This document shows positions 6,764 to 27,363 of a stretch of DNA of 64,000 nucleotides, piece after piece (the stretch's first letter is position 1; every line of letters starts with the position of its first letter). The notes under the pieces are model-generated. The model ran no database searches, was not told the origin of the DNA, and worked only from the letters and a program-made list of their open reading frames with translations. The position numbers were made by a program, and so were the translations under genes. Where the stretch lies: assembly GCF_001941865.1 (NCBI RefSeq), contig NZ_CP016162.1, forward strand, positions 4,401,501 through 4,465,500, given 5' to 3'. This stretch comes from Pseudomonas alcaliphila JAB1. Its GTDB lineage: Bacteria; Pseudomonadota; Gammaproteobacteria; Pseudomonadales; Pseudomonadaceae.

Positions 6764-6766
6764 GCT

Positions 6767-8124: not shown

Positions 8125-8139
8125 GCAACGCCTGTGCCA
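8125..8139 (-). promoter_or_regulatory. Sigma-54 (-24/-12) promoter Po of the dmp operon
   Basis: Minus-strand TGGCACAGGCGTTGC matches the sigma-54 consensus TGGCAC-N5-TTGC exactly. The -12 GC lies near 8125-8126, so transcription should begin near 8113-8114, about 30 nt before the dmpK ATG. An identical 15-bp element lies at 20513-20527. Confidence 0.93.
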
Positions 8140-8238: not shown

Positions 8239-8284
8239 TTGAGCATTTGCTCAATTGCTTCGCCGCACTTGAGCAAATGCTCAC
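8239..8284. promoter_or_regulatory. dmpR UAS: Two DmpR upstream activating sequences
   Basis: Two 16-bp near-palindromes exactly 30 bp apart: TTGAGCATTTGCTCAA at 8239-8254 and TTGAGCAAATGCTCAC at 8269-8284. They lie 100-160 bp upstream of the -12/-24 element. Sequence, number and spacing fit the UAS pair bound by DmpR/XylR-family activators. They also sit upstream of dmpR itself. Confidence 0.88.
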
Positions 8285-8501: not shown

Positions 8502-10193
8502 ATGCCGATCCGCTATAAACCCGAGATGCAATACGCAGACTTCAAGGACCTCACCAGCCTCATCCACTTCCAGAGCACGGAAGGCAAGATCTGGCTGGGC
8601 GAGCAGCGCATGCTGCTGTTGCAGGTTTCCGCGATGGCCAATTTCCGCCGCGAGATGGTCAACACCCTGGGCATCGAGCGGGCCAAGGGATTCTTCCTGC
8701 GCATGGGTTACCAGTCCGGACTGAAGGACGCCGAACTGGCCTGGAAGCTGCGCCCGAATGCCAGCGAGTACGACATGTTCCTCGCCGGCCCGCAGCTGCA
8801 TTCGCTCAAGGGCCTGGTCAAGGCCCGCCCCACCGAGGTCGATATCGACAAGGAAAGCGGGCGCTTCTACGTCGAGGTGGAGTGGATCGACTCCTTCGAG
8901 GTGGAAATCTGCCAGACCGAGCTGGGGCTGATGCAAGACCCGGTGTGCTGGACTCTGCTCGGCTACGCCTGCGCCTATTCCTCGGCGTTCATGGGCCGGG
9001 AAATCATCTTCAAGGAAGTCGGCTGCCGCGGCTGCGGCGGCGACAAGTGCCGGATCATCGGCAAGCCGGCCGAAGAGTGGGACGACGTTGCCAGCTTCAA
9101 ACAGTATTTCAAGAGCGACCCCATCATCGAGGAACTCTACGAGTTGCAATCGCAACTGGTGTCGCTGCGTACCAACCTCGACAAACAGGAAGGCCAGTAC
9201 TACGGCATCGGCCAGACCCCGGCCTACCAGACCGTGCGCAAGATGATGGACAAGGCCGCACAGGGCAAAGTCTCGGTGCTGCTGCTCGGCGAGACCGGGG
9301 TCGGCAAGGAGGTCATCGCGCGCAGCGTGCACCTGCGCAGCAAACGCGCCGCCGAGCCCTTTGTCGCGGTGAACTGTGCGGCGATCCCGCCGGACCTGAT
9401 CGAGTCCGAATTGTTCGGCGTGGAAAAAGGCGCCTTCACCGGCGCCACCCAGTCACGCATGGGCCGCTTCGAGCGGGCCGACAAGGGCACCATCTTCCTT
9501 GACGAGGTGATCGAACTCAGCCCGCGCGCTCAGGCCAGTCTGCTGCGCGTGCTGCAAGAAGGCGAGCTGGAGCGAGTTGGCGACAACCGCACGCGCAAGA
9601 TCGACGTAAGGGTGATCGCCGCCACCCACGAGGACCTGGCCGAAGCGGTCAAGGCCGGGCGTTTTCGCGCCGACCTGTACTACCGGCTGAACGTCTTCCC
9701 GGTGGCGATCCCGGCGTTGCGCGAACGCCGCGAGGACATTCCGCTGCTGGCTGAGCACTTCCTGCAGCGCTTCCACGAAGAGTACGGCAAGAGAACCCTC
9801 GGCCTTTCGGACAAAGCCCTGGAGGCCTGCCTGCATTACAGCTGGCCGGGCAATATCCGCGAACTGGAAAACGTCATCGAGCGCGGCATCATCCTCACCG
9901 ACGCGAACGAAAGCATCAGCGTGCCGGCGCTGTTTCCACGGCCGCCGGAAGAGCCGCAGACCGACAGCGAGCGGGTGTCGTCGGACGGCGTGCTGATCCA
10001 GCCGGACAATGGCCAGGGCAGCTGGATCAGCCAGTTGTTGGGCAGCGGCCTGAGCCTCGACGAGATCGAGGAAAGCCTGATGCGCGAAGCCATGCACCAG
10101 GCCAAGCAGAACGTCTCCGGTGCTGCCCGCCTCCTGGGGCTGAGCCGCCCGGCTCTGGCCTACCGGCTGAAGAAGATCGGCATCGAGGACTGA
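8502..10193 (+). CDS. dmpR: Sigma-54-dependent phenol-responsive activator DmpR
   Basis: 563-residue enhancer-binding protein, the exact length of DmpR. Residues 1-210 form the aromatic-sensing V4R-type domain, with the Cys-rich zinc/effector segment CRGCGGDKC at 175-183. A linker is followed by the AAA+ domain: Walker A GETGVGKE at 263-270, the sigma-54-contacting GAFTGA loop near 320, and Walker B GTIFLDEV. A Fis-type helix-turn-helix (AARLLGLSRPALAYRLKK) ends the protein. It binds phenols and activates Po of the divergent dmp operon. The identical promoter at 20513 suggests a second target. AACAATAA in the leader suggests translational repression by Crc/Hfq under good carbon supply. Confidence 0.97.
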   Translation: MPIRYKPEMQYADFKDLTSLIHFQSTEGKIWLGEQRMLLLQVSAMANFRREMVNTLGIERAKGFFLRMGYQSGLKDAELAWKLRPNASEYDMFLAGPQLHSLKGLVKARPTEVDIDKESGRFYVEVEWIDSFEVEICQTELGLMQDPVCWTLLGYACAYSSAFMGREIIFKEVGCRGCGGDKCRIIGKPAEEWDDVASFKQYFKSDPIIEELYELQSQLVSLRTNLDKQEGQYYGIGQTPAYQTVRKMMDKAAQGKVSVLLLGETGVGKEVIARSVHLRSKRAAEPFVAVNCAAIPPDLIESELFGVEKGAFTGATQSRMGRFERADKGTIFLDEVIELSPRAQASLLRVLQEGELERVGDNRTRKIDVRVIAATHEDLAEAVKAGRFRADLYYRLNVFPVAIPALRERREDIPLLAEHFLQRFHEEYGKRTLGLSDKALEACLHYSWPGNIRELENVIERGIILTDANESISVPALFPRPPEEPQTDSERVSSDGVLIQPDNGQGSWISQLLGSGLSLDEIEESLMREAMHQAKQNVSGAARLLGLSRPALAYRLKKIGIED

Positions 10194-10580: not shown

Positions 10581-12125
10581 TTAGCCGTTCAGCAAATGGC
10601 CAACCAAGGCCTGTTGGCGTTGAGCTTGAGTCTTTACCTGTTCGGCAAACTTCAGGGTGTTGCGTAGTTGTTCGCCACTGTGCAACGCCAGCTGATGAAT
10701 GGCATGCAGCTTGGAGTTAATCTCTTCCGCTGCCTGGCCTTGTTGGTCGCTGGCGCTGGAAATTTGCGTACTCAACTGGTGAATGCTGGCGGTGCTGTCG
10801 AGGATCCCCAGTAGCACTGTGGCGGCGCCATCAACCTCGCTAACGCTTGACTGCAGATGACTGCGGCCTTGCTCCATCGTCTGCACCACTTGGCTAGTGC
10901 CCTGACGCAGTACCTCGATCATGCCCTGTATCTCGTCGGTAGAACTCTGCGTACGGCGGGCCAACGAGCGCACCTCGTCGGCGACCACTGCGAAGCCGCG
11001 ACCGTTGTCGCCCGCCCGCGCTGCTTCGATGGCGGCGTTGAGCGCAAGCAAGTTGGTTTGTTCGGCAACACTGCGGATCACGTCGGAAATGCGCCCAATG
11101 ACCTGGCTGTGTTGAGCGAGGGCGGCTACCGCGCTCGCTGAGCTCTCCAGCGTGTCGCAAAGCCGGTTGATGCTCCATCTGGCCTGCTCCATGCGTTGAC
11201 GACCGTTATGGGTCAATGCTGCGGCTTGCTGGGCCAGGCTGGTTGCGTCGAAGGTGCTTTTGGCGACTTGCTGAGTGGTCGCCGCGAACTCCTCGACGGC
11301 CGCAGCGATTCCGGCCAGCTCCTGTTGCTGGTCGTGCGAGGCAGCACTGCTCGCGCCGACCAGACCAGTAGCCTGACCGGCGCCCTCGGCAACCTGGCGG
11401 CTGCTGTCGTGAATGCGTGCGAGCAAGGCGGCCAGCCTGAATTCCAGCAGGCGCATGGCCAGTTCTATCTGTCCGATCTGATCCACCCGGCCTGTGTAGA
11501 TCAACTGTTTGATTGGATGCTGCACCAGACTGCGGCTATTGCGCACGAGCGCAGCGAATGGCCGGGCTTGTCGATGCAGCAGCAACCAGCAGAGTATTGC
11601 CGAACCTAGCGTGGCGAGCCCGCCGAGCATGGGCTCCAGACTCATGGCTAGCGCAGCCAGAGGGGCGATTGACAGGCAAGCCCACAGGCTCTGGCGAGAC
11701 GCCTGACTCGGGTTCGGCCAGCGCAGACAGGCCGGCTGTCGACCTTGAGCGCGCACACGATAGGTTTCACTTGCGCGGGCAATCATCTGCGGGGTCGGCA
11801 ACTGGTAGATCGCCTGATACTCGAGTACCTCACCGTTTTCGAGGATCGGGCTGATGTAGACGTCGACCCAAAATCCCTGACCATCGGCTCGGCGGTTCTG
11901 CAGCATGCCCATCCACGACTGCCCTTTGTTCACTGTGCCCCACAGATCTTTGAACGGGCCGGCGTGCATCTCTGGGTGGCGCAGACAATTGACCGGCTGG
12001 CCGAGCAATTGCGCAGGGCGGTAGCCGGCAAGGCTGGCGAAGGCAGGGCTGACGTAGGTGATGAGGCCGCTGGCGTCGCACAGCAAGAGCAACTGTTCGG
12101 CGGGGTGAGCATGAGTGAGTGGCAT
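10581..12125 (-). CDS. PAS-domain methyl-accepting chemotaxis protein (Aer-like)
   Basis: 514-residue chemoreceptor. An N-terminal cytoplasmic PAS domain (about residues 8-115; [17 protein letters not shown]) is followed by a hydrophobic anchor of about two segments (about 145-190). A HAMP-like region and the signalling domain follow, with the hairpin tip [18 protein letters not shown]. The architecture is that of Aer/NahY-like energy or metabolism-dependent receptors with no periplasmic ligand domain. The ATG at 12125 has AAGGA 7 nt upstream and follows the first DUF1329 gene by 70 bp. It is probably the last gene of the sigma-54-driven operon, which would couple phenol degradation to taxis. 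The precise ligand or cofactor cannot be read from sequence. Confidence 0.88.
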
Positions 12126-12195
12126 ATTGCGCGTCCTTTTTAATGCACTGGCGATCCTGAGATGAGGAGGGATAAGAGCGCCTCGGTACGAGGGA

Positions 12196-13512
12196 TCAAT
12201 TCCCGGTTGCACGCAGGTGCTGCACGCTGAAAATCTCTGGCTTGCTCAGCTCGGAGTCGACCTGGCCCTTGAACTGCCCGGTGGTGCAGTGCATGGCCTG
12301 CATGTCGATCATCGAGAAGCTGTCGTCCAGCGCGACTCCGCTGCCCATGTTGATCGGCAGGTGATGGTCCGGGTGCGCCTTGCCGATGGTGAAGGTCTTC
12401 CACGGCTCGCCCTTGCGGTCGTAGGAGACGGTGCGCGACACGGCGAAGGTCTGTGCATCCACATAATGGACGCGCTTGGACAGCGGGTGGCGGGCGAACG
12501 TATTGAGCGGCGTTGCCTGCAACTGATAGACCTTGCGCAGTTGCCAGGTGATGCGCGGGAAGCAGTTGCCTTTGCCGTCGAAGGCCACCATGCGGTAGCC
12601 CTCGCTGTCGGTGCTGCCCGCGTCGAGGGCCAGGTCGTTGTGGTTGTAGAAGGGCATCAACATGAAGCGGGTACCCTGATAGCTCCAGCGCATGTCGGCG
12701 ATGCGCCCGTTGTACCCCTCGAAATCCTCGATCATCAGATCGGAGCCCAGGAAAGCGTCGGTCATCTGCCCGGTGGCCAGGCGTCTGACGCGGCGTTGAA
12801 AGCCCAGATAGAGCCAGGAGTTGTCGCGCTTCAGATCGTTGTTAAAACGATGAATCAGCAGTTGGGTGTTGCGCAGATCTTGCGGCGAGTCGATGTTGAG
12901 GTAGATCGCCCGGAACTTGATCGACGGGTTGGGGGTAATGGCCGGTAGCGGTGGCTGGTTGACCCGATTGGTGAAGTTGAGGAAGTTCATGGTCATGTGG
13001 ATGGTGCGCTCCACCTCGGCCGTGTCCATGTTGCGGTACTTCCAGATGAACGGGGAGATGATCGCGCTGTCGCCCCAGTTGTAGCCGTACTTGACGTTCC
13101 AGGCGAGTTTCTCCCCGGCGCGCGGATCGGCGGCATCCGGCTCCGCGGGAAAGGGCCGGCCGGCAATGGTGCCGCTGATCTCACCGGGGTTGGCACCTAG
13201 TTTGGCGCTGTGCAGGTGTTTGCGGGTGGCCTCGAGGTAGTGGGGGTGCAGGTCGAACGAGGTGGTCGGCGCGACCTCGATGCGAGTCCAGCCCTGGCGG
13301 ATAAAGCCGAGCATGGCGGGGTCGAGCAATTCCTTGAAGCGCTCGACGTTGTCGGAATCGATGAGCATGCCGGTGTTCAGACCGTCGGCCTCGGGTATTG
13401 CCGCGCGGTAAGGGTAGAAGGCCTTGTCGATGAGGTCGTCATCGGCCAGGGCGGACAGCGGGTGCAGGCTGAGGTAGAGCAAGGCACAAAACAGTCTGTT
13501 GTTATTATTCAT
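12196..13512 (-). CDS. DUF1329 periplasmic protein, copy A
   Basis: 438-residue DUF1329 family protein with an N-terminal signal peptide ([17 protein letters not shown], cleavage near ALADDD). DUF1329 proteins are thought to share a LolA/LolB-like lipid-binding fold, but no function is established to my knowledge. Conserved blocks include [54 protein letters not shown] and [16 protein letters not shown]. It is a close paralogue of the next gene upstream. ATG at 13512 was chosen over an extension to 13566 because the signal peptide then starts the protein. Codons 2-4 carry AATAATAA, a Crc/Hfq-type motif. Confidence 0.88.
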
Positions 13513-13668
13513 GGCTGAACCTTTGCTGGTGGGATCCCGCTCGACAGGTTCCTGGCCTGCGGGCACGGCTTCTCACAGCGCCGCCCATGCGGACGGCGGC
13601 TGTTTGCTGGGCTGCTGGTTGGGAGAAAGGCCCGGCCGCGTCTAACCGGCCGGACCGAGTGGCGCTGC

Positions 13669-14997
13669 TTAGTTACCGGTGGCGCGCATGTGCTGCACGC
13701 TGAACATCTCCGGCTTGCTCATCTCCGGATCGACCTGGCCCTTGAACTGCCCAGTGGTGCAGTGCATGGCCTGGATGTCGATCATCGAGAAGCTGTCGTC
13801 GATCGACACGCCGGAGCCCTTGTTCTTCGGCAGGTGGTGATCCGGATGGGCCTGGCCGATGGTGAAGGTCTTCCACATGCTGCCCTTGCGGTCATACGAC
13901 ACGGTGCGCGGCACGGTGAAGGTCTGCGCATCCATGTAGTGCACGCGCTTGGACAGTGGGTGGCTGCCGTCCACCGGCACCGATTCCACCTCGTAGACCT
14001 TGCGCAGCTGCCAGGTGATGTTGGGGAAACAGCCGCCCTGACCGCCGAACGCCACCACCTGGTAACCGTCGCTGTCCTTGTGCGTTTCGCTGTCCAGCGT
14101 CAGGTCGTTGTGGTTGTAGAACGGCATCAGCATGAAGCGGGTGCCCTTGTAGCTCCACTGCATGTCGGAAATGCGCCCGTTGTAGCCCTCGAAGTCCTCG
14201 ATCATCAAGTCGGAGCCGAGGAAGGCATCGGTCACCTGGCCGGTGGCCAGGCGCCGCACACGACGCTGGAAGCCCAGGTACAGCCAGGAGTTGTCACGCT
14301 TGAGGTCGTCTTCGGCGCGGTGGATCAACAGCTGGGTGTTGCGTACGTCATACGGCTCCAGCACCTTGACGTAGATGCCGCGGAACAGCTGCGACGGGTT
14401 GGGGGTGATCGCCGGCGTGGGCTCTTGGTTGACCCGGCGGGTGAAGTTGAGGAAGTGGAAGTCGAACTTGATGGTGCGCTCCAGCTTGCCCGTGTTCATG
14501 TCACGGAACTTCCAGTAGAACGGCGAGACGGCGGCGCTGTCGCCCCAGTTGTAGCCGTACTTGTAGTTCCAGGCGAGCTTCTCGCCGGCGCGTGAGTCGC
14601 TGGCGTCCGGCTCCTGAGGGAACGGCCTGCCGGCCACGGCGCCACTGATCTCGCCGGGCTTGGCGCCGAGTTTGACCGTGTCCATGTGCTGGCGGGTAGC
14701 CTCGACATAGTTGGGGTGCAGGTCGAAGGAGGTGGTGTCGCCGACCTTCAGCTCCGCCCAGCCTTTCTCGATAAAGCCGTAGAAGGCCGGGTCGAGAATC
14801 TCCTTGAACTGGGCGACGTTGCCCTTGTTGATGGTCATGCCGGCGCTCAGACCAGCGAAGCTCGGCTTGTCGTTCTGGTAGGGGTAGAAGGACTGCTGGA
14901 TCACCGCCTCGTCGGCGGCATAGACGCCGCTGGTCGCGCCCAGCGTCAACAGGGCCAGTGCCAGAGCGCGGCTCTGCCGGGATTTCTTGTAATTCAT
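13669..14997 (-). CDS. DUF1329 periplasmic protein, copy B
   Basis: 442-residue DUF1329 protein with a clear signal peptide (ALALALLTLGATSGVYA, then ADEAV). It shares nearly all conserved blocks with copy A, including [37 protein letters not shown] and the C-terminal QHMRATGN. The gene starts 19 bp after the DUF1302 gene and is followed by a 156-bp gap with GC-rich inverted repeats before copy A, which may set different expression levels. The envelope location and neighbours suggest handling of a lipid or hydrophobic molecule in the periplasm; that is inference. Confidence 0.88.
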   Translation of the reverse strand: MNYKKSRQSRALALALLTLGATSGVYAADEAVIQQSFYPYQNDKPSFAGLSAGMTINKGNVAQFKEILDPAFYGFIEKGWAELKVGDTTSFDLHPNYVEATRQHMDTVKLGAKPGEISGAVAGRPFPQEPDASDSRAGEKLAWNYKYGYNWGDSAAVSPFYWKFRDMNTGKLERTIKFDFHFLNFTRRVNQEPTPAITPNPSQLFRGIYVKVLEPYDVRNTQLLIHRAEDDLKRDNSWLYLGFQRRVRRLATGQVTDAFLGSDLMIEDFEGYNGRISDMQWSYKGTRFMLMPFYNHNDLTLDSETHKDSDGYQVVAFGGQGGCFPNITWQLRKVYEVESVPVDGSHPLSKRVHYMDAQTFTVPRTVSYDRKGSMWKTFTIGQAHPDHHLPKNKGSGVSIDDSFSMIDIQAMHCTTGQFKGQVDPEMSKPEMFSVQHMRATGN

Positions 14998-15016
14998 GGC
15001 TGTTCCTCGTGATTGA

Positions 15017-16915: not shown

Positions 16916-16956
16916 GACAGGTCCTCGTGCGGTTTAAGTGTGGGAAGACATCCGGT

Positions 16957-19425
16957 TCAGGCCGGATGGCGTTCCTCTTGCGGCAGCCCGCCGGTCGCCA
17001 CGCAGGGCGCGACTGGCAGGGGTTCGGCTGAGGCGGGCACGGCAGCGTCGGTGTGCAGAATGCCGTCTGCGTCGGCATAGGCCCCGGTGATGAACTTCGG
17101 CTTGAACACCAGCACCCAGGCGGGTACCAGCAACATGGCGGCGATGGCGTTGATGACGATCATCACGCACAGCAGCAGGGCGGCATCGGACTGGAAACGC
17201 AGGTCCGAGAGGACCACCCACATGATGATCCCGGCCATCAGGGTCAGTGCGGTGAAGCTGATGGCGATGCCGGTGGTGGCGATGGCCTGGCGCACCGCGT
17301 CGGTGAGACGGCCAAACTTGACCATTTCCTCGCGGATGCGATCCATCATGTAGATCGAGTAGTCGATGCCCACGCCAATGCCGACGGCGATCACCGGCAC
17401 CGTGTTGATGTCGATACCCATGCCGGCCAGGCCCATATAGGCGTAGGTCAGCGCGCTGGCGAAGGCCATCGCCAGGAGCATCATCAAGCCGGCATGCCAG
17501 GAGGTGTAGAACAGCATGACGAAGACGAAGATCAGCAGGAACACCAGCGGCAGCACCACTAGGTTGGTCTCGAATGCCGACTCGTTCATCGCCGCGGCCA
17601 CGCCGAGGGTACCGCCAGCCAGGCGGATGCTCAGCCCCGGCACTGCATCGCCGTGCTGCTCGATCCACTGCTTGGCCATGTGCATGGCGCGGCGGATGGT
17701 CTCGCCCTGACGATCCTTGTAATAGAACACCAGGTTGGCGACGCGGTCGTCGGTGTCGGTGAACTCGTTGAGCGCGCCGGGGATCGGGCTGGAGGCCATG
17801 TAGGTGAACATTAGCCCGCCGATGTAATTGGTGTCGTGGGGAATCTGCAGCCAGCGCGGATCGTCGTTGTGCATCAGCCGGTTGACCTGGGTGATCAGGT
17901 CCGGCAAACCCTTGCTGCCACCGACCGAGGGGTCGCTGAGCATGTGGTTTTGCAGCGCTTGCAGGGCGCGCAGCACCTCGGGTTTCTTGATTCCGCCTTT
18001 CTCGGCATGCTCGGCGACGATGTACAGCTCTTCCGAGCCGGGGAAGCGCTGGTTGATCTCCTTGGACGAGACGTTGTAATCGTGTTCCGGGTAGAGGATC
18101 GGCGAACCGGGCTCGGAGTCGCCGATGCGCACCTGGGAGGAGGCCCACAGGCTGGCGAGGATGGCCAGCCCGGCCAGGCCCAGTGCCTTGCGCGCGGCGG
18201 TCGGGTTGGCCACCGTCCGCGCACAGATCGCGCCGATGTGGCGCAGAGCGTTCTCGCGCATCTCCGGGTTCTGCGGCTTGGGCAGGATCGACAGCAGCAG
18301 CGGCACGCCGATCAGCACGCTGAAGATCACCGTGGTCGCCCACAGCGAGGCATAGATGCCCAGCTTGGTGTTCAGGGCGATCGAGCCGATGGCGATCAGC
18401 AGCAGGCCGATGGCATCCGAGACGATGCCCAGGGTGCCGGGGCGGAACAGGCTGTCGAAGGTGGCGCGCGCGGCCAGCGGGCCGTCGCCGAGCAGTTTGA
18501 CCTCGGCGTAATAACGCTCGACCAGCTGCACGCCGTGGCTCATGGCGCGGGCGGCGATCAGGAAAGGAATCACCAGGCCCAGCGGGTCGAGGTTGTAGCC
18601 CAGCAGGCTGATGATACCGAGGCCCCAGACGGTCGAGATCAGCACCCCGCCGAGTGGGATCAGCACGCCATAGGCCTTGCGGAAATGAATCACCAGCAGC
18701 GCCACCATGATCAGCACGGTGCAGATGAATATCTGCAAAATCTGGCTCATGTACGTGTAGGCCCAGCCCACTAGCACCGGCTGGCCGGTGGCGTAGAGGG
18801 TGACCCCGTCGATCTTCTCGGCGTCGCGCAGCGCCTGGATCTGCGCGAAGGTCTTGGCGTAGTCGAGCTGGCCTTCGATCAGTTGCGCCTTGACCAACGC
18901 CACTTGCAGGTCCGGCGAAACCAACGGACCATAGACCCGCGGGTTAGCCACCACGTCGGCTTTCATCGCCGCCAACTGCGCGGCGGAGAGCTGGCCGAAT
19001 TCGGGTTGGTAGTAAGGCTCGGAGTTGATGCTGCCAACCTCGTTCAGCCAGACCTTGCGCGAGTTGCGGTGGGTCAGGCTGCTGACCAGGTTGTGGTTGA
19101 CTCCGGGTAGGCTGTCCACCGCCTGGGTGACCCGATCGATCAAGGCCAAGCGCTCGTTGCTGAACAGGTCGCCTTTGTCGAAGGCCACGCCGATGATCAG
19201 CACGTTGGCGCCGCCGAAGCTGTCCTTGATGCTGTTGTGCAGCTGGATGTACGGGTGATCCTGCGGCAGCAGGTCGGAAAAGTCGGTGTAGACCTTCAGC
19301 CCGGGAATGCGCAGGGCGAATAACAGGGTCAGCACCGCGATGATCGCCAATACGGTGCGCGGGTGGTCGAACAACCAGACCTTGGCCTGAGCCAGCTTAT
19401 GGCTAAACGGATGCAGTATGGGCAT
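16957..19425 (-). CDS. RND/MMPL-family inner-membrane transporter
   Basis: 822-residue RND superfamily protein with the duplicated layout: TM1 (about residues 20-40), large periplasmic loop, TM2-6, then TM7, second loop and TM8-12. The second half keeps the proton-relay type motif GIGVGIDYSIYMMDRI. The equivalent first-half segment reads AARAMSHGVQLVERYY without the Asp, so only one half carries an obvious acidic relay. Relatives (MMPL/HpnN type) move lipids or hydrophobic molecules without a MacA-like adaptor. It starts 11 bp after the YCF48-like gene. Direction and substrate cannot be told from sequence. Confidence 0.9.
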   Translation of the reverse strand: MPILHPFSHKLAQAKVWLFDHPRTVLAIIAVLTLLFALRIPGLKVYTDFSDLLPQDHPYIQLHNSIKDSFGGANVLIIGVAFDKGDLFSNERLALIDRVTQAVDSLPGVNHNLVSSLTHRNSRKVWLNEVGSINSEPYYQPEFGQLSAAQLAAMKADVVANPRVYGPLVSPDLQVALVKAQLIEGQLDYAKTFAQIQALRDAEKIDGVTLYATGQPVLVGWAYTYMSQILQIFICTVLIMVALLVIHFRKAYGVLIPLGGVLISTVWGLGIISLLGYNLDPLGLVIPFLIAARAMSHGVQLVERYYAEVKLLGDGPLAARATFDSLFRPGTLGIVSDAIGLLLIAIGSIALNTKLGIYASLWATTVIFSVLIGVPLLLSILPKPQNPEMRENALRHIGAICARTVANPTAARKALGLAGLAILASLWASSQVRIGDSEPGSPILYPEHDYNVSSKEINQRFPGSEELYIVAEHAEKGGIKKPEVLRALQALQNHMLSDPSVGGSKGLPDLITQVNRLMHNDDPRWLQIPHDTNYIGGLMFTYMASSPIPGALNEFTDTDDRVANLVFYYKDRQGETIRRAMHMAKQWIEQHGDAVPGLSIRLAGGTLGVAAAMNESAFETNLVVLPLVFLLIFVFVMLFYTSWHAGLMMLLAMAFASALTYAYMGLAGMGIDINTVPVIAVGIGVGIDYSIYMMDRIREEMVKFGRLTDAVRQAIATTGIAISFTALTLMAGIIMWVVLSDLRFQSDAALLLCVMIVINAIAAMLLVPAWVLVFKPKFITGAYADADGILHTDAAVPASAEPLPVAPCVATGGLPQEERHPA

Positions 19426-19436
19426 GGTGACGGGTC

Positions 19437-20459
19437 TCAGTCGGTCGTGGTCGCAACGGCGGGCGTAGCGCTGGGCGCAGTGTCGAGGGTCAGCAGCAGG
19501 CCGCGGCCGCCGGCAACGATCAGGCGTTGTGCGCTATCCGCGGTGATGGCGCGCAAGTAGACCGGCGCATCGGGCGTCGGCAGCGTTTGCCACTGTTCAC
19601 CGGCCAGTTGCAGCACGCTGCTGTGGTCGCCGACGGCGAACAGGCCGTTGTCGCTCGCTAGAAAGCCGAAGATCGGTGCGCTGCTCGGCGTGCTCTGGCG
19701 TTGCCAGCTCTGCCCGGCATCCGTGGTGTGGTAGATGAAGCCGTTGAGGCCACCGACCCAGCCCTCCTCGGGGCTGCGGAAGTAGCTGGCGTGCGGGTAG
19801 AACTCGTCCGGCAGGGTGCCGGCCAGCTGCCAGTTGGCGCCGCCGTCCTGGCTGGCGAAGAGCATGCCAAACTCAGCCACGGCCACCGCATGGTCGCGGT
19901 CGATGAACTGCAGGTTGGTCAGCATGGCGTCTTCGTCGAGGCTGGTCTCCTGCCAGTTGGCCCCCAGGTCAGTGCTGCCGAGCAACGTGCTTAGGCCGCC
20001 GGCGACCCACCAGGCTCCGCTTGGCGAACAGGCCGCCGTTAGCATCTGCTCTTGGGTCGGCAACTGGATCTCGCGCCAGCTCTTGCCCTGATCGTGGCTA
20101 TGCCACAGATAGTTGTCGAAACTGAGCGCGATGAAGCTGCCGTCGGCGCAGGCATCCAGATCAATCAGGCTGCGACCATTTGCGATGATCTGACGCGACC
20201 AGTTCTTGCCCTGATCGAGACTGCTCAACAGCACGCCATTGTTACCGGCCAGCAGAGTGACGCCTGGTGTACTGGCCATGGCCTGGTAAAAATCGGTGCG
20301 CTGAACGGCCTTGGAGCTGCTGGCCTCTACGCCGGAGAGATTTAGCTGCGCTTCGCAGCCAACCAAGAAAGCAGGTAGGAGTATTGCGCTAAGCAAACAG
20401 GGTGCACGGCGGTAGGCACTCAACGGCCAACGGCCATCGAGAGAGTTTCGCGTTTTCAT
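19437..20459 (-). CDS. YCF48-like beta-propeller lipoprotein
   Basis: 340-residue protein with an N-terminal signal ending in a lipobox (LPAFLVGC, Cys about 35) and at least five Asp-box-like repeats (SLDQGKNWSRQ, SHDQGKSWRE, STDLGANWQE, SQDGGANWQL, TTDAGQSWQR). The fold should be a YCF48/BNR beta-propeller anchored to a membrane in the periplasm. YCF48-like proteins frequently accompany MMPL pumps and may act as an assembly or substrate-binding partner. The ATG at 20459 is preceded by GGTGAG; a GTG one codon earlier is possible. It is the first gene after the sigma-54 promoter, with a leader of about 40 nt carrying AACAACAA (20479-20486). Confidence 0.87.
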   Translation of the reverse strand: MKTRNSLDGRWPLSAYRRAPCLLSAILLPAFLVGCEAQLNLSGVEASSSKAVQRTDFYQAMASTPGVTLLAGNNGVLLSSLDQGKNWSRQIIANGRSLIDLDACADGSFIALSFDNYLWHSHDQGKSWREIQLPTQEQMLTAACSPSGAWWVAGGLSTLLGSTDLGANWQETSLDEDAMLTNLQFIDRDHAVAVAEFGMLFASQDGGANWQLAGTLPDEFYPHASYFRSPEEGWVGGLNGFIYHTTDAGQSWQRQSTPSSAPIFGFLASDNGLFAVGDHSSVLQLAGEQWQTLPTPDAPVYLRAITADSAQRLIVAGGRGLLLTLDTAPSATPAVATTTD

Positions 20460-20512
20460 CACGTCTCACCACTTGTGATTGTTGTTGTCTTGAAGCGGTT
20501 GATGACGCTAGA

Positions 20513-20527
20513 GCAACGCCTGTGCCA
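20513..20527 (-). promoter_or_regulatory. Second sigma-54 (-24/-12) promoter, identical to dmp Po
   Basis: Minus-strand TGGCACAGGCGTTGC is identical over all 15 bp, spacer included, to the dmp promoter at 8125-8139. Similarity continues downstream (CGCTA two bases beyond the element in both, plus-strand orientation). The predicted start is near 20501-20502, upstream of the YCF48-like gene. Confidence 0.92.
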
Positions 20528-20556
20528 GCAGTTAACCTGCGGCTTTAATCAAGATA

Positions 20557-20569
20557 TAAATCGTTGATA
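20557..20569 (-). promoter_or_regulatory. IHF consensus site
   Basis: Minus-strand TATCAACGATTTA matches WATCAANNNNTTR at every specified position. It lies in an AT-rich stretch (20541-20585) between the second sigma-54 promoter and the UAS-like palindromes, as in the dmp control region. Confidence 0.75.
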
Positions 20570-20638
20570 TATATTGATTTTTATTGCCTCACCGATACTC
20601 CACCGAAGGGCTCGCACCTCAGTTCGTAGGCGGTAGAG

Positions 20639-20684
20639 TTGAGCAAATAATCAAACCGATGAAAGGGTTGTCCATTTGGTGAAG
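20639..20684. promoter_or_regulatory. dmpR UAS: DmpR-type UAS pair of the envelope operon
   Basis: TTGAGCAAATAATCAA at 20639-20654 matches the dmp distal UAS at 13 of 16 positions, and TTGTCCATTTGGTGAA at 20669-20684 matches the dmp proximal UAS at 12 of 16. Their starts are 30 bp apart, exactly as at dmp, and they lie about 12 bp (one helical turn) further from the promoter than the dmp pair. Confidence 0.72.
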
Positions 20685-20716
20685 TACAGACGCAAGGATC
20701 CGCCAGCGAATGGATT

Positions 20717-21107
20717 TTGAAGGGCGCCAGGTCAGCCATGGCATGCGCTCAAAGGCCAGCACTGCTTCCGACGGACACGGCTGGGATCCTGAACAGCCAT
20801 TCGATTCAAAAAACCTCAGCCCTACATAACCGCAATGACATCACCACCAAGCAGGTTCGCCCCCTGTCATTGCCGTGCCCTCGCTGTCACTCCCCCAAAG
20901 TCGCTCCCTTCCATCACGCCATGAAAGTCGGCGCGGCCATCGGCACCGGGGGCAGTGTTGCGCGTGGCGTCAGCGCGGCCCTTGCAGGTGGTCAGGCTGG
21001 CGTCGCCGGCCCTGTCTAAAGCAGGCGCCATTTTCGGCGGCGTGGGTGGCTGTGCGCTGGGTGAGTCGCTCGACCGTCACGTCCTGGACCCTCGCCCCAG
21101 CGCCTAG
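20717..21107 (+). pseudogene. Frameshifted small zinc-ribbon/glycine-zipper protein
   Basis: The first frame from the ATG at 20717 encodes a single CPRC pair (LPCPRCHSPKVAPFHH), then a glycine-rich segment (VGAAIGTGGSVARGVSAALAGGQAGVAGP), and stops at 21017-21019. The +1 frame continues the same kind of sequence, KAGAIFGGVGGCALGESLDRH, to a stop at 21105-21107. The join suggests one small protein of about 100 residues with a Cys pair and a glycine-zipper membrane segment, broken by a one-base insertion near 21017, unless +1 frameshifting occurs at the stop. The true start is unsure. It lies in an 858-bp gap otherwise holding only the control sites listed. Confidence 0.45.
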
Positions 21108-21246
21108 CCGGTAATCGCCCAGTTTTGCCGCCCGCCCTTGCTCCCCCTCATCTGGCTGAAAGCCACGTCATTGCTGGCCTGTAGCGCTTGCTACCGACCT
21201 TTCCCCGGCAGCCGTTGGCCAGCGCAAGCAATCCGCTCGATTGACC

Positions 21247-21264
21247 GTATTAACTAGTTAGTAC
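21247..21264. promoter_or_regulatory. TetR-type palindrome upstream of dehydroquinase gene
   Basis: GTATTAACTAGTTAGTAC is an 18-bp palindrome with one mismatched pair. The core AACTAGTT resembles AACCGGTT (25506-25513) and AACTGGTT (29796-29803) upstream of quiC and tct. Likely operator of the nearby TetR regulator (22685-23356). Confidence 0.6.
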
Positions 21265-21317
21265 ATTTTCCCGGAACGACTTGTCGCCCGTTGCCACAAC
21301 AACAAGAGATCGCCCCT

Positions 21318-21758
21318 ATGTCCCCCTGCATCCTGGTGCTCAACGGCCCCAACCTGAACCTGCTCGGAACCCGCGAACCGGCCACTTATGGCCATGAAAC
21401 CCTCGCCGACATTTCCCGGCTTTGCGCCGATACCGCCGCCGAACACGGCTTGAAGATCGAGTTTCGCCAGACCAACCATGAGGGCGAACTGCTCGACTGG
21501 ATTCATGCCGCGCGCGGGCGCTGCGCCGGCATCCTGATCAATCCGGCAGCCTGGACCCATACCTCGGTGGCCATCCGCGACGCCCTGGTGGCCAGCGAAC
21601 TGCCGGTAATCGAGGTGCATCTGTCCAACGTGCACAAGCGTGAGCCGTTCCGTCATCACTCCTTCGTCTCGCCGATCGCCGTCGGTGTCATTTGTGGGCT
21701 CGGCAGTCAGGGTTACCGACTGGGCCTGCAGTACTTCGCTCAATCGCTCAAGGGTTAA
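21318..21758 (+). CDS. aroQ: 3-dehydroquinate dehydratase, type II
   Basis: 146-residue type II dehydroquinase converting 3-dehydroquinate to 3-dehydroshikimate. The motif [17 protein letters not shown] near the N-terminus supplies the catalytic Arg and Tyr; later segments are [17 protein letters not shown] and [17 protein letters not shown] with the catalytic His. The ATG at 21318 follows AACAACAAGAGA. It is paired with a dehydrogenase gene 4 bp downstream and sits beside quiC, so a catabolic role (quiB-like) in quinate breakdown is more likely than chorismate biosynthesis. Confidence 0.93.
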
Positions 21759-21762
21759 GACC

Positions 21763-22614
21763 ATGTCCTCGGTTACCAGCGGCATTCTCGCCGGCCTCAT
21801 TGGCAAAGGCATTCAGGCCTCCCGCACGCCCGCCATGCACGAACGCGAAGGCGATGCGCAGGGGCTGCGCTACCTCTACCGTCTGATCGACCTCGACCAG
21901 CTGGGCCTCGACCTCGATGCGCTGCCGAGCCTGCTCGATGCGGCGCAGCACATGGGCTTTACCGGTCTCAACATCACCTTCCCGGCCAAGCAGGCGATCA
22001 TCCCGCTGCTCGACGAGCTGTCGAGCGAGGCGCGTGGCATTGGCGCGGTGAACACCGTGGTACTCAAGGACGGCAAACGTGTCGGCCACAACACCGACTG
22101 CCTGGGCTTCGCCGAGGGTTTGCGTCGCGGCCTGCCCAACGTGGCTCGCCGTCGCGTGGTGCAGATGGGGGCAGGCGGCGCAGGCGCAGCCGTGGCCCAT
22201 GCCCTGCTCGCCGAAGGCGTCGAACGCCTGTGCATTTTCGAAGTGGAGCCTGGCCGCGCCCAGGCCCTGGCGGACAACCTTAACGCTCACTTTGGCGCCG
22301 AGCGCGCCATCGCCGGTGAAGACCTGGCAGGTGAAGTCGCCGCTGCCGACGGCCTGGTCAACACCACACCGGTGGGCATGGCCAAGCTGCCGGGTACTCC
22401 GCTGCCGGTGGAGCTGCTGCATGCCGGGCTGTGGGTCGCCGAGATCATCTACTTCCCACTGGAAACCGAACTGCTCCGCCACGCCCGCGCCCTCGGCTGC
22501 AGCACCCTGGACGGCGGCACCATGGCGGTATTCCAGGCGGTCAAGGCGTTCGAGCTGTTCAGCGGCCGCCCGGCCGATGCCGAACGCATGCAGGCGCACT
22601 TCGCCAGTTTCTGA
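21763..22614 (+). CDS. aroE: Shikimate/quinate 5-dehydrogenase family protein
   Basis: 283-residue AroE/YdiB-type NAD(P)-dependent dehydrogenase. The N-terminal substrate domain shows SRTPAMH (in place of the usual SxSP...H) and NITFPAKQ with the catalytic Lys; the nucleotide domain shows MGAGGAGAAVAHAL, and NTTPVGM follows. It interconverts shikimate (or quinate) and the 3-dehydro acid. The gene begins 4 bp after aroQ, so the two are co-transcribed. With QuiC nearby it likely feeds shikimate/quinate into protocatechuate. Cofactor preference cannot be fixed by eye. Confidence 0.9.
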   Translation: MSSVTSGILAGLIGKGIQASRTPAMHEREGDAQGLRYLYRLIDLDQLGLDLDALPSLLDAAQHMGFTGLNITFPAKQAIIPLLDELSSEARGIGAVNTVVLKDGKRVGHNTDCLGFAEGLRRGLPNVARRRVVQMGAGGAGAAVAHALLAEGVERLCIFEVEPGRAQALADNLNAHFGAERAIAGEDLAGEVAAADGLVNTTPVGMAKLPGTPLPVELLHAGLWVAEIIYFPLETELLRHARALGCSTLDGGTMAVFQAVKAFELFSGRPADAERMQAHFASF

Positions 22615-22627
22615 GCGCACTCATGCA

Positions 22628-22667
22628 AAAAGGGCCCTGGCAGCGACAACGCCGCCAGGGCCCTTTT
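22628..22667. terminator. Bidirectional rho-independent terminator
   Basis: Perfect 14-bp stem AAAAGGGCCCTGGC/GCCAGGGCCCTTTT with a 12-nt loop, flanked by A and T runs, between the convergent aroE and TetR genes. Confidence 0.9.
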
Positions 22668-22684
22668 CATCTCCGCACCGATCT

Positions 22685-23356
22685 TCAGCCCTGGATATAA
22701 CGCAGCACGGCCTCGCAGATCATCGCCTTGTGCCGCTGCTTGACCTGCTCGTCGGGCAGATCGATCTGGAAGATCTCGCCAAAGGTGTGGCGGTTCGAGA
22801 CGCGATAAAAGCAGAACGAGCTGATCAGCAGGTGTACATCGAGCACATCGATACCGGGGCGGAACACGCCCTCCTCCTCACCGCGGCGCAGGGTCTTGCC
22901 GAGGGTATCGAGCACCACGTTGCTCATCTGGCGAATGGCAGGCGATTGCTTGACGAACTCGCCGTAGTGGATGTTCTCGATGCTGACGATGCGCACGAAG
23001 TCGACGTTGCGGTCATGGTGATCGAAGGTGAACTCCACCAGCCGCCGGATCGCCAGCACGGGCGGCAAGGATGCCAGGTCAAGGCGACTCTCGGTGCCGC
23101 GAATGTCGCCGTAGAGCTTGACCAGCACTTCGAGGTAGAGCTGCTCCTTGCTGCCGAAGTAGTAGTAGATCATCCGCTTGGACGTGGCGGTGCGCTCGGC
23201 GATGGCGTCCACCCGTGCCCCGGACAAACCCTGCTGGACGAACTCGGTGATGGCGGCCTGGAGGATGCTCTCGCGAGTTTTCTCCGGGTTGTTCTTACGT
23301 ACCTTGCGCACCACCTCGAGAGGTTGAGTGGCCAGGTTGGCAACGGCTTCGGTCAT
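22685..23356 (-). CDS. TetR-family regulator
   Basis: 223-residue TetR regulator. A Lys/Arg-rich N-terminal tail precedes the HTH (SARVDAIAERTATSKRMIYYYFGSKEQLYLEVL in pieces, about residues 45-80), followed by a ligand domain. The ATG at 23356 is used because it starts a normal TetR N-terminus. It follows quiC by 86 bp on the same strand. The neighbourhood (quiC, aroQ, aroE) suggests it senses a quinate/shikimate pathway compound. Candidate operators are the AACYRGTT palindromes at 21252, 25506 and 29796. No such site precedes its own gene, so autoregulation would be indirect. Confidence 0.85.
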   Translation of the reverse strand: MTEAVANLATQPLEVVRKVRKNNPEKTRESILQAAITEFVQQGLSGARVDAIAERTATSKRMIYYYFGSKEQLYLEVLVKLYGDIRGTESRLDLASLPPVLAIRRLVEFTFDHHDRNVDFVRIVSIENIHYGEFVKQSPAIRQMSNVVLDTLGKTLRRGEEEGVFRPGIDVLDVHLLISSFCFYRVSNRHTFGEIFQIDLPDEQVKQRHKAMICEAVLRYIQG

Positions 23357-23442
23357 ACGGCAATGGTCTTTTTTATAGGTCTTGGTGGGGCGGATTATGG
23401 CAGGCCGCAGCGGCAACCGGACAGGCTGCCGCCTGAACCCAC

Positions 23443-25350
23443 TTATAACCGCGGACGCTTCAATCCGCCGCTGCGTGACTTGGCCATGGCAGCCAGGCGT
23501 ACCGCGACGTTAGCCGCGCCATAGCCGACATAGCCGCCCTTGCGCTGAATGATCTCGAAGAAGAAGCGCTCCTCGAACGGCTCGGTGTAGACGTGGAACA
23601 ACTCGCCGCCCTGGGCATCACGGTCATAGAGCACGTTGTAGTAAGCCAGCTCGCTGAGGAACTCGTCGTCGAAATCGAAGCGCGCGGCCAGATCGTCGTA
23701 GTAGTTCAGCGGAATTTCCAGCAGCGGCACCCCTGCCTCTTTGGCCCGCGCCACTTCGGCGAATATGTCTTCGCAGGAAAACGCGATGTGGTGCACGCCG
23801 GAGCCCTGATAGCTGGACAGCGCATGGGCAATGGCGGTGTTGCGGTTCTCCGAGATGTTCAGCGGCAAGCGGATCGAACTGCAACGGCTGCGAATCGCCC
23901 GGCTTTTCACCAGACCGTAAGGATCGGGCAGGACCACTTCGTCATCGGCCTCGAAGTCGAGCAGACTCTTGTAGAACAGCACCCAACTGTCCAGCGAGTC
24001 GGCCGGCAATGCCAAGGCCATGTGGTCGATGCGCTGCAGACCACCGCTGGCCTCGACCGTCTGATTGAGGCTGAAGTCGGTGTCATAGATGGTCTGCCCT
24101 GCTCCCGCCTGCTCCACCAGGTAGATCAGGCTGCCATCAGGGGCGCGCACTGCGGGCACTTCCCGCTCATTGGGGCCGACCAGGCCGCGATAGGGCTGGC
24201 CGCGATAGTCGCAGGCACGCTGCAACGCAGCGGCACCATCCTTCACCCGCAGTGCCGTGGCACACAGAGACGGGCCATGGGACTCGAAGAAGTTATGCGC
24301 GAAAGAATAGGGTTCGGCATTGAGCACGATGTTGATATCGCCCTGACGCAGCAGGCTGACGTCCTTGGAGCGATGCTGGCCGGCACGAGCGAAGCCCAGT
24401 CGCTCCAGCCAACCGGCCAGGCGCGCGCCGACGGCCTCATTGACGGCGAACTCGAGAAATTCGACGCCATCGTAGCGGTGGGCCGCAGGCGGGGTGAAGA
24501 GCACGCCCGGCTCGATCTGATGCCCCTCTTTCTCGAGACGCTTGTGGGTCTTTTCCTCGAGATAGAGCAGTGAGCGCAGGCCGTCGGCGGCGTTCTGACG
24601 CGGTGGCGCGGCGCGGAATCCATCGTTGAAGATTTCCAGCGACAGCGGACCGCGGTAGCCGGTGCGCAGGATCGGCGCGAGGAAACCGGCCAGATCGAAT
24701 TCGCCCTGCCCCGGGAAGCAGCGGAAATGCCGGCTCCATTCCAGCACATCCATGGCCAGGATCGGCGCATCGGCCATCTGCACGAAGAAGATCTTGTCGC
24801 CGGGGATATCGGCGATGGCAGCAGGGTCGCCCTTGAGCGACAGGGTATGGAAACTGTCGAGGATCACCCCGACGGCAGGATGGTCGGCCTGGCGCACCAG
24901 GTTCCACACCTGCTGATAGGTGTTGACGTGGCGCCCCCAGGCCAGGGCCTCGTAACCGATACGCAGGCCGCGTGCGCCGGCACGCTCGCCGAGCAGGCGC
25001 AGGTCGTCGATAAGGATTTCATCATCGCCCAGCGAGTCGGCAGCGACGTTGCTGCACACCAGCACCAGATCGGTGCCCAGCTCCTGCATCAGGTCGAACT
25101 TGCGCTCGGCACGGTCGATGTTGCGCTGCAGGCGGTCGCGGCGACAGCCTTCGAAGTCGCGAAATGGCTGAAACAGGGTAATGGCCAGGCCGAGGTCGGC
25201 ACAGCGCTTGCGGATTTCAGTGGGGCTGCCGTCGTAGTAGAGCAGGTCGTTCTCGAAGATTTCCACACCGTCGAAGCCGGCGGCGGCAATGGCTTCGAGC
25301 TTCTCGGGCAGGGTACCGCTGAGGGAAACGGTGGCAATTGAACGCTGCAT
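23443..25350 (-). CDS. quiC: 3-Dehydroshikimate dehydratase fused to HPPD-like domain
   Basis: 635-residue two-domain protein. The N-terminal TIM-barrel (about 1-280) converts 3-dehydroshikimate to protocatechuate; the four metal ligands of QuiC1-type enzymes are seen as Glu134 (YEALAWG), Asp165 (ILDSFH), Gln191 (FVQMAD) and Glu239 (SLEIF). The C-terminal half (about 290-635) is a vicinal-oxygen-chelate, 4-hydroxyphenylpyruvate dioxygenase-like module keeping a His/His/Glu set (RIDHMAL, VHHIAFS, FFFEIIQRKGGYVGYG). Such fusions are known in Pseudomonas; the role of the second domain is unclear. The ATG at 25350 begins MQRSIATVSLSG. The promoter region 25351-25541 holds two operator-like elements. 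Confidence 0.95.
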   Translation of the reverse strand: MQRSIATVSLSGTLPEKLEAIAAAGFDGVEIFENDLLYYDGSPTEIRKRCADLGLAITLFQPFRDFEGCRRDRLQRNIDRAERKFDLMQELGTDLVLVCSNVAADSLGDDEILIDDLRLLGERAGARGLRIGYEALAWGRHVNTYQQVWNLVRQADHPAVGVILDSFHTLSLKGDPAAIADIPGDKIFFVQMADAPILAMDVLEWSRHFRCFPGQGEFDLAGFLAPILRTGYRGPLSLEIFNDGFRAAPPRQNAADGLRSLLYLEEKTHKRLEKEGHQIEPGVLFTPPAAHRYDGVEFLEFAVNEAVGARLAGWLERLGFARAGQHRSKDVSLLRQGDINIVLNAEPYSFAHNFFESHGPSLCATALRVKDGAAALQRACDYRGQPYRGLVGPNEREVPAVRAPDGSLIYLVEQAGAGQTIYDTDFSLNQTVEASGGLQRIDHMALALPADSLDSWVLFYKSLLDFEADDEVVLPDPYGLVKSRAIRSRCSSIRLPLNISENRNTAIAHALSSYQGSGVHHIAFSCEDIFAEVARAKEAGVPLLEIPLNYYDDLAARFDFDDEFLSELAYYNVLYDRDAQGGELFHVYTEPFEERFFFEIIQRKGGYVGYGAANVAVRLAAMAKSRSGGLKRPRL

Positions 25351-25500
25351 AGACGGCTCCGGGCTGAGGCGGCGCCGTGGCGGGCAAAGTGAGGGAGGCG
25401 AGACGCGCTCATGAGCCCTCACTCGGCCGGTTGGTCGGCGCTCATGGATTGTTCGTAGCCTGGATTATTGGCAGGGTCGGGGAGATCAGCAATTCAAAAT

Positions 25501-25536
25501 GAACGAACCGGTTAGTTTTCCGTTCGATAATCGAAC
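25501..25536. promoter_or_regulatory. Composite operator upstream of quiC
   Basis: A TetR-like palindrome (ACGAACCGGTTAGT, 25503-25516) is followed after 5 bp by GTTCGATAATCGAAC (25522-25536), which differs at one base from the PcaR box GTTCGATAATCGCAC. A closely similar arrangement occurs at 29793-29825 before the tct transporter genes. Both regulators could control quiC. Confidence 0.65.
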
Positions 25537-25541
25537 ATCGA

Positions 25542-26426
25542 TCATTTCCGGGACAGTTTCCGGCTCTGCCAGGCAGCCGCCAAACCACTGAGGCAGATGA
25601 TGAGGATGCCGATCATCGCCGTGGCATCCGGCTTGTGCTGGAACACCAGCAGCCCCAGCAGCCCGGCGAAGACGATCTGCACGTAGCCGAACGGCGCCAG
25701 CAAAGCAGGCGCGGCATGGCGGAAAGCGTGGGTCAGCAGCAGGTGCGCGGCCATGCCACAGCCGCCCAGCGCCAGCATCATCACACCGTGTGTGAGGCTC
25801 GGTACATGCCAGAAGAACGGCACCAGCAGACTCATCACCAGCGTGTTGACCAGGCCGGCGAAGAAGTTGCTGGTGGTCGCGCTGTCCACTTCACTGAGGC
25901 GCCGGGTGAGGATCTGATAGCAGCTGAAACACAGCGCTGCGCTCAGCGGTAACAGCACCGCCGGAGTGAACAGGCTGCCGCCCGGATGCACGATGATCAG
26001 CACCCCGACGAAGCCGATGATCACCGCCACCCATTGCCCGACGCTGACGCGTTCACCGAGCAAGGGCACCGAGAGCGCCGTGACCAGCAGCGGCGCCAGA
26101 AAGATCACCGAGGTTGCCTCGGCCAGCGGGATGAACATCAGCCCCGTGGTGAACAACAGGCTCACGCCCAGCAGGCACAGCGCCCGCAGCACCTGCAGGC
26201 CAGGCCGCTTGGTACGCAGCACGCGCAAACCGGATTGCGGCAGGAAGATGCCGGCCATCAACAGGGTGTGCACCAGGTAGCGCGCCCAGACGATGAGGAT
26301 GATCGGATAGAAGCCCGACAGGTATTTGGACATGGCATCGTGACTGGCGAACAGGAAGGTCGCCAGCACCATCAGGCCGATCCCCTTGAGCGGGTGATTG
26401 GCGCCGGACAATGGAGTGAGACTCAT
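25542..26426 (-). CDS. DMT-superfamily (EamA) permease
   Basis: 294-residue inner-membrane protein with about ten hydrophobic segments and two EamA repeats (GIGLMVLATFLFASHDAMSKYL; SVGQWVAVIIGFVGVLIIVHPG in pieces). The ATG at 26426 gives the usual family start; a TTG start 15 codons earlier is possible. It is 105 bp downstream of the isomerase-like gene and upstream of quiC, so it may move quinate, shikimate or a related cyclic acid across the membrane. That substrate is inferred only from its neighbours. Confidence 0.83.
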   Translation of the reverse strand: MSLTPLSGANHPLKGIGLMVLATFLFASHDAMSKYLSGFYPIILIVWARYLVHTLLMAGIFLPQSGLRVLRTKRPGLQVLRALCLLGVSLLFTTGLMFIPLAEATSVIFLAPLLVTALSVPLLGERVSVGQWVAVIIGFVGVLIIVHPGGSLFTPAVLLPLSAALCFSCYQILTRRLSEVDSATTSNFFAGLVNTLVMSLLVPFFWHVPSLTHGVMMLALGGCGMAAHLLLTHAFRHAAPALLAPFGYVQIVFAGLLGLLVFQHKPDATAMIGILIICLSGLAAAWQSRKLSRK

Positions 26427-26531
26427 GAAATACCCGGAAAGCGGACTCGCCGCAAAAAGATAGCAAGGCAACTAACTATACAGACCACCACGGCCCAGCG
26501 CCTACATCCACTGCGGCAAGCACTGGCTGCA

Positions 26532-27350: not shown

Positions 27351-27363
27351 GATGATTCTCTGC

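Follow-up and report, generated by a model that had tools for sequence, protein, structure and literature searches.

DmpR is a well studied σ54 activator and a common biosensor part, which the literature consulted here views through its catabolic promoter. The locus described here raises the question of whether this regulator also commands an operon of putative envelope proteins, which lies near dmpR in the window (the whole 64-kb stretch of Pseudomonas alcaliphila JAB1 DNA that we analysed; Table 1). The product of dmpR is the one XylR_N-type activator encoded in the genome and differs little, in an alignment of 465 residues (1006 bits), from CapR/DmpR of PDB 6iy8, which comes from P. putida KCTC 1452 (PMC7264223). 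Our analysis indicates that positions 20513–20683 are very probably a DmpR-dependent σ54 promoter region and the YCF48–RND–DUF1302–DUF1329–DUF1329(–MCP) operon behind them a second DmpR target beside dmpKLMNOP.

Table 1. Coordinates of the regulator, the reference promoter, the control region and the envelope operon in the window
Feature	Position	Strand	Basis
dmpK −24/−12 element, reference promoter	8125..8139	−	letter match to 20513–20527
dmp UAS, proximal, reference	8239..8254	.	mismatch scan and matrix
dmp UAS, distal, reference	8269..8284	.	mismatch scan and matrix
dmpR, phenol-responsive σ54 activator (XylR_N, V4R, AAA+, HTH_8)	8502..10193	+	domain search; alignment to PDB 6iy8
PAS + MCP-signal chemoreceptor, operon end	10581..12212	−	PF08447, PF00015
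DUF1329/LolA-like protein, copy 2	12196..13566	−	PF07044, PF17131
DUF1329/LolA-like periplasmic protein, AmeB-like, copy 1	13669..14997	−	PF07044, PF17131
DUF1302 protein, AmeA-like, putative outer-membrane barrel by analogy with systems described in PMC6394551 and PMC10866462	15017..16915	−	PF06980
MMPL/RND inner-membrane transporter, HAE3-like, AmeD-like	16957..19425	−	PF03176
YCF48/BNR-repeat putative lipoprotein (LVGC lipobox), AmeC-like, first gene	19437..20459	−	PF14870
σ54 −24/−12 element TGGCACAGGCGTTGC	20513..20527	−	identical to dmpK element
IHF-type site TATCAACGATTTA, between UAS and promoter	20557..20569	−	perfect consensus match
UAS1, proximal DmpR-type palindrome	20639..20654	.	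with UAS2, window's second-best pair by dmpK-side matrix
UAS2, distal DmpR-type palindrome TTGTCCATTTGGTGAA	20668..20683	.	earlier 20669–20684 shifted by one base

Control region and genes of the envelope operon

We take window positions 8125–8284 to be the counterpart of Po, the promoter of dmpKLMNOP in Pseudomonas sp. CF600. The sequence-only reading had proposed that the −24/−12 element of the operon is identical to that of dmpK, and indeed the minus-strand letters agree at 15/15 positions; the window contains no other perfect match to TGGCACN5TTGC, and the operon front carries the σ54 element of DmpR/XylR-dependent promoters. Across the 5.34-Mb genome TGGCAYN5TTGC has 39 matches, against 13 for the pattern read backwards as a control, and the spacer AGGCG occurs at the two sites of the window only. 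The genome-wide search for further DmpR targets, which covered sites with exact TGGCAYN5TTGC, found a DmpR-type UAS pair at none of the other 37 (best summed UAS mismatch, 9).

DmpR/XylR-type promoters are described as having paired palindromic UAS about three helical turns apart, 100–200 bp upstream (PMC6449761, PMC7264223), and such a pair precedes the operon. The likeness of the proximal palindrome to the dmp UAS had been put at 13/16, correctly, and is 14/16 in the other orientation. For the distal palindrome the 12/16 match stands, at 20668–20683, and the coordinates 20669–20684 do not, that register giving only 3–5/16; because the palindrome lies at 20668–20683, the pitch is 29 bp, and not the 30 bp of the dmp pair as had been supposed. 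The gap from UAS1 to the promoter is 111 bp against 99 at dmpK, a difference of 1.14 helical turns, which bears out the earlier estimate of about one turn further out. Both palindromes are self-complementary at 10/16 positions, and the dmp pair is stronger (14 and 12). Ranked by summed mismatch, the best UAS-type pairs in the window are those of dmpK (1) and of the operon front (3), followed by one with 7. Between the UAS and the promoter lies the IHF-type site, a perfect minus-strand match to WATCAANNNNTTR as had been claimed; shuffling the dinucleotides of the 111-bp spacer produced a perfect match in 32 of 5,000 cases.

The operon front thus has in common with the dmpK promoter its −24/−12 letters, paired UAS about three turns apart, an IHF-type site and the candidate regulator, and differs from it in its longer gap, shorter pitch and weaker palindromes, and in leading to envelope proteins instead of enzymes. 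We considered and rejected a recent duplication of the block that holds the dmpK promoter, as no likeness outside the motifs was evident in an alignment judged by eye. At L093, L100 and L101, which are loci of DUF1302 paralogues in this genome, there is no UAS pair (best 8–9 mismatches), and one of them has a σ54-like site. In L093 a perfect σ54-like element (G000:C1:3395851–3395865) lies about 200 bp upstream of the DUF1302 gene, without a DmpR-type UAS pair, and a different σ54 activator may control this paralogue.

The downstream genes had been said to have no enzyme role in phenol breakdown, and the domain searches agree: the frames are open over their full length and no Pfam domain of such an enzyme was found in any. 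DUF1302, DUF1329, COG4447/YCF48 and MMPL/RND proteins are encoded in one cassette, and by this content the predicted envelope transport module is an AmeABCD-like RND system. The YCF48 gene has an alternative GTG start at 20462, and the Gly-Cys of its lipobox is nearly invariant among 26 aligned sequences. The top NCBIfam match of the RND transporter, TIGR00921, scores 120.6 bits, below the curated HAE3 cut-off of 351.9. The first four genes are spaced by 11, 41 and 19 bp, and 102 bp separate the two DUF1329 frames; in two relatives, L013 and L014, the second copy of the DUF1329 tandem (12196–14997 in the window) is about 70% identical to the first copy of the window. The chemoreceptor, for which an internal ATG near 12125 is the likelier start, is the weaker part of the proposed co-induction, as its co-transcription is suggested by gene order alone; an MCP gene stands behind the operon in 20 of 53 relatives' loci, some of which stop too early to tell.

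Conservation and geometry of the module

To follow the control region in relatives, GTDB species genomes were scanned with an alignment of the 26 YCF48 sequences, yielding 54 loci, of which 53 were used (L065 was dropped as no true relative). In 50/53 the YCF48 gene is preceded by an exact TGGCAYN5TTGC; L061 has it with one mismatch, and L038 and L062 lack it. We defined a module as TGGCAYN5TTGC with two UAS of at most four mismatches each, a gap of 94–115 and a pitch of 28–32. It precedes the operon in 46/53 loci, against 0/1060 shuffled regions, and elsewhere in those loci (2.06 Mb, both strands counted) it occurs 14 times, always as a dmpK promoter, which leads us to reject chance similarity. 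Comparison of the intergenic region among operon carriers therefore finds the palindromes kept in most, and not lost in all. The module is missing in L038, where the contig ends; in L047, L048, L051, L054 and L055, which keep the σ54 element with weak or displaced UAS; and in L062, which has neither. When 17 more genomes of the order are included and gaps of 94–123 are allowed, the module is present in 55/70 loci, and the 15 failures include L112 (genome G649), which has DmpR in the genome and no module. Pseudomonas, Stutzerimonas, Halopseudomonas and Marinobacter share the predicted target, and in Alteromonadaceae its sites are weaker.

Since part of the UAS consensus came from prior knowledge and the limits were chosen once the element matches had been inspected, we added a second, less circular test, in which a matrix was built from the dmpK-side UAS pairs of 43 loci (44 examined; pairs picked with the consensus). 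The dmpK region aside, this matrix ranks the YCF48-side pair first in the locus in 48/53 cases (misses: L038, L054, L055, L060 and L062). In the window it gives 47.4 bits to the dmpK pair, 33.1 to the operon pair and 4.2 to the next, which overlaps a dmp UAS, the next independent match scoring 1.6.

A footprint from 33 representatives with under 75% similarity across the module has mean information contents of 1.9 bits for the promoter letters, 1.39 for UAS1 and 1.19 for UAS2, values that are inflated at the selected positions because of the prior consensus and the limits set afterwards. UAS positions left free in the consensus carry 0.5–1.8 bits, and two of its chosen letters, the G and the C that adjoin the outer ends, are weak (0.1–0.6). 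The flanks are close to random: 0.25 bits between the UAS, 0.16 after UAS1, 0.11 before UAS2, and 0.25 just before and 0.45 after the promoter.

UAS gaps fall into the classes 96–100, 108–112 and 118–122, with nothing between them within the searched range, that is, in steps of roughly one helical turn; a sharp periodicity of the gaps was not demonstrated (Rayleigh R 0.74 at 10.5 and 11, 0.71 at 10 and 11.5). An IHF-like site with at most one mismatch occurs in 38/46 loci, against about 6.4 expected from shuffles. Strict conservation of the perfect consensus was rejected, with 7/46 perfect and 31/46 at one mismatch. For the 19/33 representatives with such a match in operon orientation, which are related sequences and not independent, the site lies 41–42 bp from the promoter in 6/6 with a gap of 106–113 and 30–31 bp in 8/12 with a gap of at most 100; it mostly moves with the first two gap classes, and the single representative with a gap above 116 departs from this trend, its site lying at 30.

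Gene order and linkage to dmpR

In the usual order (46/53 loci) dmpR is encoded on the strand opposite to the dmp genes and is followed on its own strand by the operon. This collinear downstream position of the operon is seen in 47/53; in 46/53 the operon begins within 1 kb of the dmpR end, the gap being larger in L021. The window departs from this order, and so does L013 (P. chengduensis), where operon and dmpR likewise converge; L012, L038, L057 and L062 are loci without DmpR, and L058 has a distant one only. Aligned with the window, the HGW-Gammaproteobacteria-13 bin (L014) runs forward over 544–10186 and inverted over 10580–20528. Given this alignment and the prevailing collinear order, the arrangement in the window is most simply read as an inversion of the operon relative to dmpR, in which the control region would have moved along. 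No 12-mer is common to 10151–10620 and 20451–21300 that could represent inverted repeats behind the event. A convergent arrangement also occurs in genome G592 (L127), whose proteins are much less closely related; in G434 and G495 (L126 and L128) the operon lies beyond the dmp genes.

These orientations bear on whether read-through from dmpR, or an ordinary σ70 promoter, might mainly express the operon, the σ54 elements being relics. The short same-strand distance in 46/53 loci would suit read-through, and a single weak σ70-like match (9/12, at 20674–20647) can be found. Where the operon faces dmpR, however, as in the window, L013 and G592 (L106, L127), read-through from dmpR is impossible, and the module is kept nonetheless. 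One σ70-like match in 10100–21300 compares with 2.2 expected by chance, and the conservation of the σ54 and UAS sites amid nearly random spacers is unlike that of relics. We therefore give this alternative scarcely any credence.

Operon and regulator also travel together. With thresholds of E ≤ 1e-60 for the YCF48 gene and E ≤ 1e-180 for DmpR, 7 of 398 genomes of the genus have the former, 31 the latter and 7 both (Fisher 8.8e-9); among 390 genomes of the order the numbers are 21, 32 and 20 (Fisher 2.8e-24), neither value being corrected for kinship. DmpR occurs without the operon in 24 of the 31 genus genomes. G652 carries the operon with no DmpR match at E ≤ 1e-180 and has no module either; similarly, L062, a metagenome bin, has matches only to the ATPase/C-terminal part of DmpR, and the module is absent too.

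Control of the operon's σ54 promoter by a different enhancer-binding protein, with palindromes that resemble DmpR sites only as members of a family, is in our view very unlikely. Palindromes of several σ54 activators do look alike, and further activators exist, as the genomes of L012 and L013, the two nearest relatives searched, yield 14 and 17 DmpR matches at E ≤ 1e-60 (DmpR included); G649, with DmpR and no module, also fits such a view. It sits poorly, however, with DmpR being the sole XylR_N-type activator of the genome, with the first rank that the dmpK-side matrix gives the operon pair in most loci, with the presence of DmpR in 20/21 operon carriers of the order and with an operon start so often within 1 kb of dmpR.

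The P. veronii T1 conjugative plasmid carries dmpKLMNOP, dmpR and then the YCF48 gene. L016 and L067 (P. veronii T1 plasmid) lack about 211 internal bases of the MMPL gene (window 18456–18666), so the RND gene looks broken there, and L016 keeps the control region. In the dmpR–YCF48 interval of L016 (also L014 and L015) the distal UAS lies, as judged by eye, inside a longer inverted repeat, which in L016 closely follows the stop codon of dmpR and might double there as the dmpR terminator. In genome G241 (L125), positions 4646–6301, which separate dmpR from the operon, encode on the opposite strand another DmpR-like regulator with 54% identity. G287 (L122, 9899–13804) has a DmpR 87% identical, followed by unrelated genes, with no envelope operon in the following 10 kb; an insertion-sequence-like pair behind its dmpR (assigned by eye) may have removed the operon.

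Predicted function and precedents

Because the control regions match and dozens of related bacteria retain the pairing, phenol probably switches on the catabolic genes and the envelope operon together. Phenol-bound DmpR would bind the paired UAS at 20639–20683, IHF would bend the A+T-rich spacer at 20557–20569, and DmpR would contact RNA polymerase–σ54 at 20513–20527, with transcription starting near 20501. The sequences themselves show the sites, how they are conserved and spaced, and their link to DmpR; we infer binding, looping and phenol induction at the operon from established DmpR/XylR biology. The products would form an AmeABCD-like trans-envelope route, made of an inner-membrane RND pump, a lipoprotein propeller, LolA-like periplasmic carriers and an outer-membrane barrel, which may handle phenol or hydrophobic intermediates, most likely for efflux or tolerance.

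That control of such operons by DmpR relatives is possible in principle is already known. In Burkholderia sp. 383, AphR is predicted to control the same four-gene set (Suvorova and Gelfand 2019, PMC6449761), and AphT is given the same predicted role in Dechloromonas, Methylibium and Azoarcus, as is AphS in Dechloromonas; the set was proposed to counter solvent stress and toxic aromatics (PMC6449761). These systems share with ours a XylR/DmpR-group regulator of phenol catabolism over a COG4447/COG1033/PF07044/DUF1302 operon, which in Azoarcus includes an MCP, but they belong to Betaproteobacteria, with the AphR case described in one genome (PMC6449761), whereas here the operon stands beside dmpR in dozens of gammaproteobacterial species and has a site-level footprint. 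In Aromatoleum aromaticum EbN1, a deletion mutant, transcripts and the proteome show that EtpR is required for expression of a catabolic and an ‘efflux’ cluster (PMC4630880). EtpR is likewise a DmpR-type σ54 regulator encoded between the two clusters that need it; it serves an anaerobic p-ethylphenol pathway (PMC4630880), and the likeness noted here concerns the arrangement of the regulator. As in an EtpR/AphR-type regulon, the regulator gene of the window is linked to both clusters and sites of its own type are found at both. Given the AphR and EtpR precedents, we regard the operon as a widely conserved gammaproteobacterial case of a known principle. In the open-licence PMC literature searched we found no DmpR-controlled YCF48/RND/DUF1302 operon in Gammaproteobacteria and no paper mentioning both DmpR and YCF48, nor did it yield a description of the breadth of the DmpR case or of its site-level footprint.

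We infer transport, and its direction, from homologues. AmeABCD of Castellaniella defragrans, described as an efflux system for apolar monoterpenes, has the same four components: an outer-membrane DUF1302 protein, a periplasmic DUF1329 protein, a COG4447/YCF48-type protein and an RND pump, which in Castellaniella is of the HAE3 family (PMC6394551). It lies in a monoterpene island, the available text describes no DmpR-type control (PMC6394551), and the window operon differs in having the YCF48-like gene first and DUF1329 doubled. Cells deleted for ameABCD tolerated monoterpenes less well and, when treated with CCCP, accumulated more Nile Red, as expected of an export defect (PMC6394551). Phenol transport by AmeABCD-like systems was not found in the available text of the literature cited here.

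A reading that we consider possible, if the less probable one, keeps the proposed regulation and makes the module one of uptake, or of lipid or hydrophobe trafficking, for growth on the substrate. Growth of P. putida on Tween 20 depends on PP_0765 (DUF1302) and PP_0766 (DUF1329), and likewise on a periplasmic protein and on a transporter of the multidrug-efflux type; a role in substrate transport was proposed (PMC10866462). Furthermore, PMC13101534 recounts that Delftia cannot grow fully on phenanthrene without a DUF1329 gene, and interprets a YCF48/MMPL/DUF1329 cluster of a benzene-degrading culture as transporting benzene across the cell membrane. The export phenotype of the ameABCD deletion points the other way. 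Phenol, moreover, is small and generally held to cross membranes unaided, which also counts against uptake. On the evidence from homologues we somewhat favour efflux and tolerance over uptake or trafficking.

A broader and, in our judgement, unlikely proposition is that in many Gammaproteobacteria the DmpR regulon had two parts from the outset, phenol hydroxylase and a dedicated trans-envelope conduit (partly with a chemoreceptor) under twin promoters, the conduit being as necessary on phenol as the enzymes. If so, DmpR would be a sensor that remodels cell envelope and behaviour beyond its part as a catabolic switch, and the single-promoter picture would stem from strains that lost the second half. 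A second target would in any case tie the phenol response to the poorly understood envelope RND/DUF1302/DUF1329 systems and offer an inducible, single-regulator handle on their cargo, with relevance to the phenol tolerance of biodegrading strains and to off-target effects of DmpR in biosensor hosts.

Related neighbourhoods have been described: a Zoogloea phenol cluster includes DUF1302 and DUF1329 genes (PMC7012976), and the neighbouring genes named in P. veronii SM-20 include an RND exporter and a BNR protein besides the regulator of a phenol hydroxylase, with no claim in the available text that this regulator controls the other two (PMC11052242). In the window itself, positions 21291–40100 read, with translations judged by eye, as a cluster for quinate/shikimate and hydroxybenzoate utilisation, containing type II dehydroquinase-like, shikimate dehydrogenase-like, pobA-like and tripartite transporter genes.
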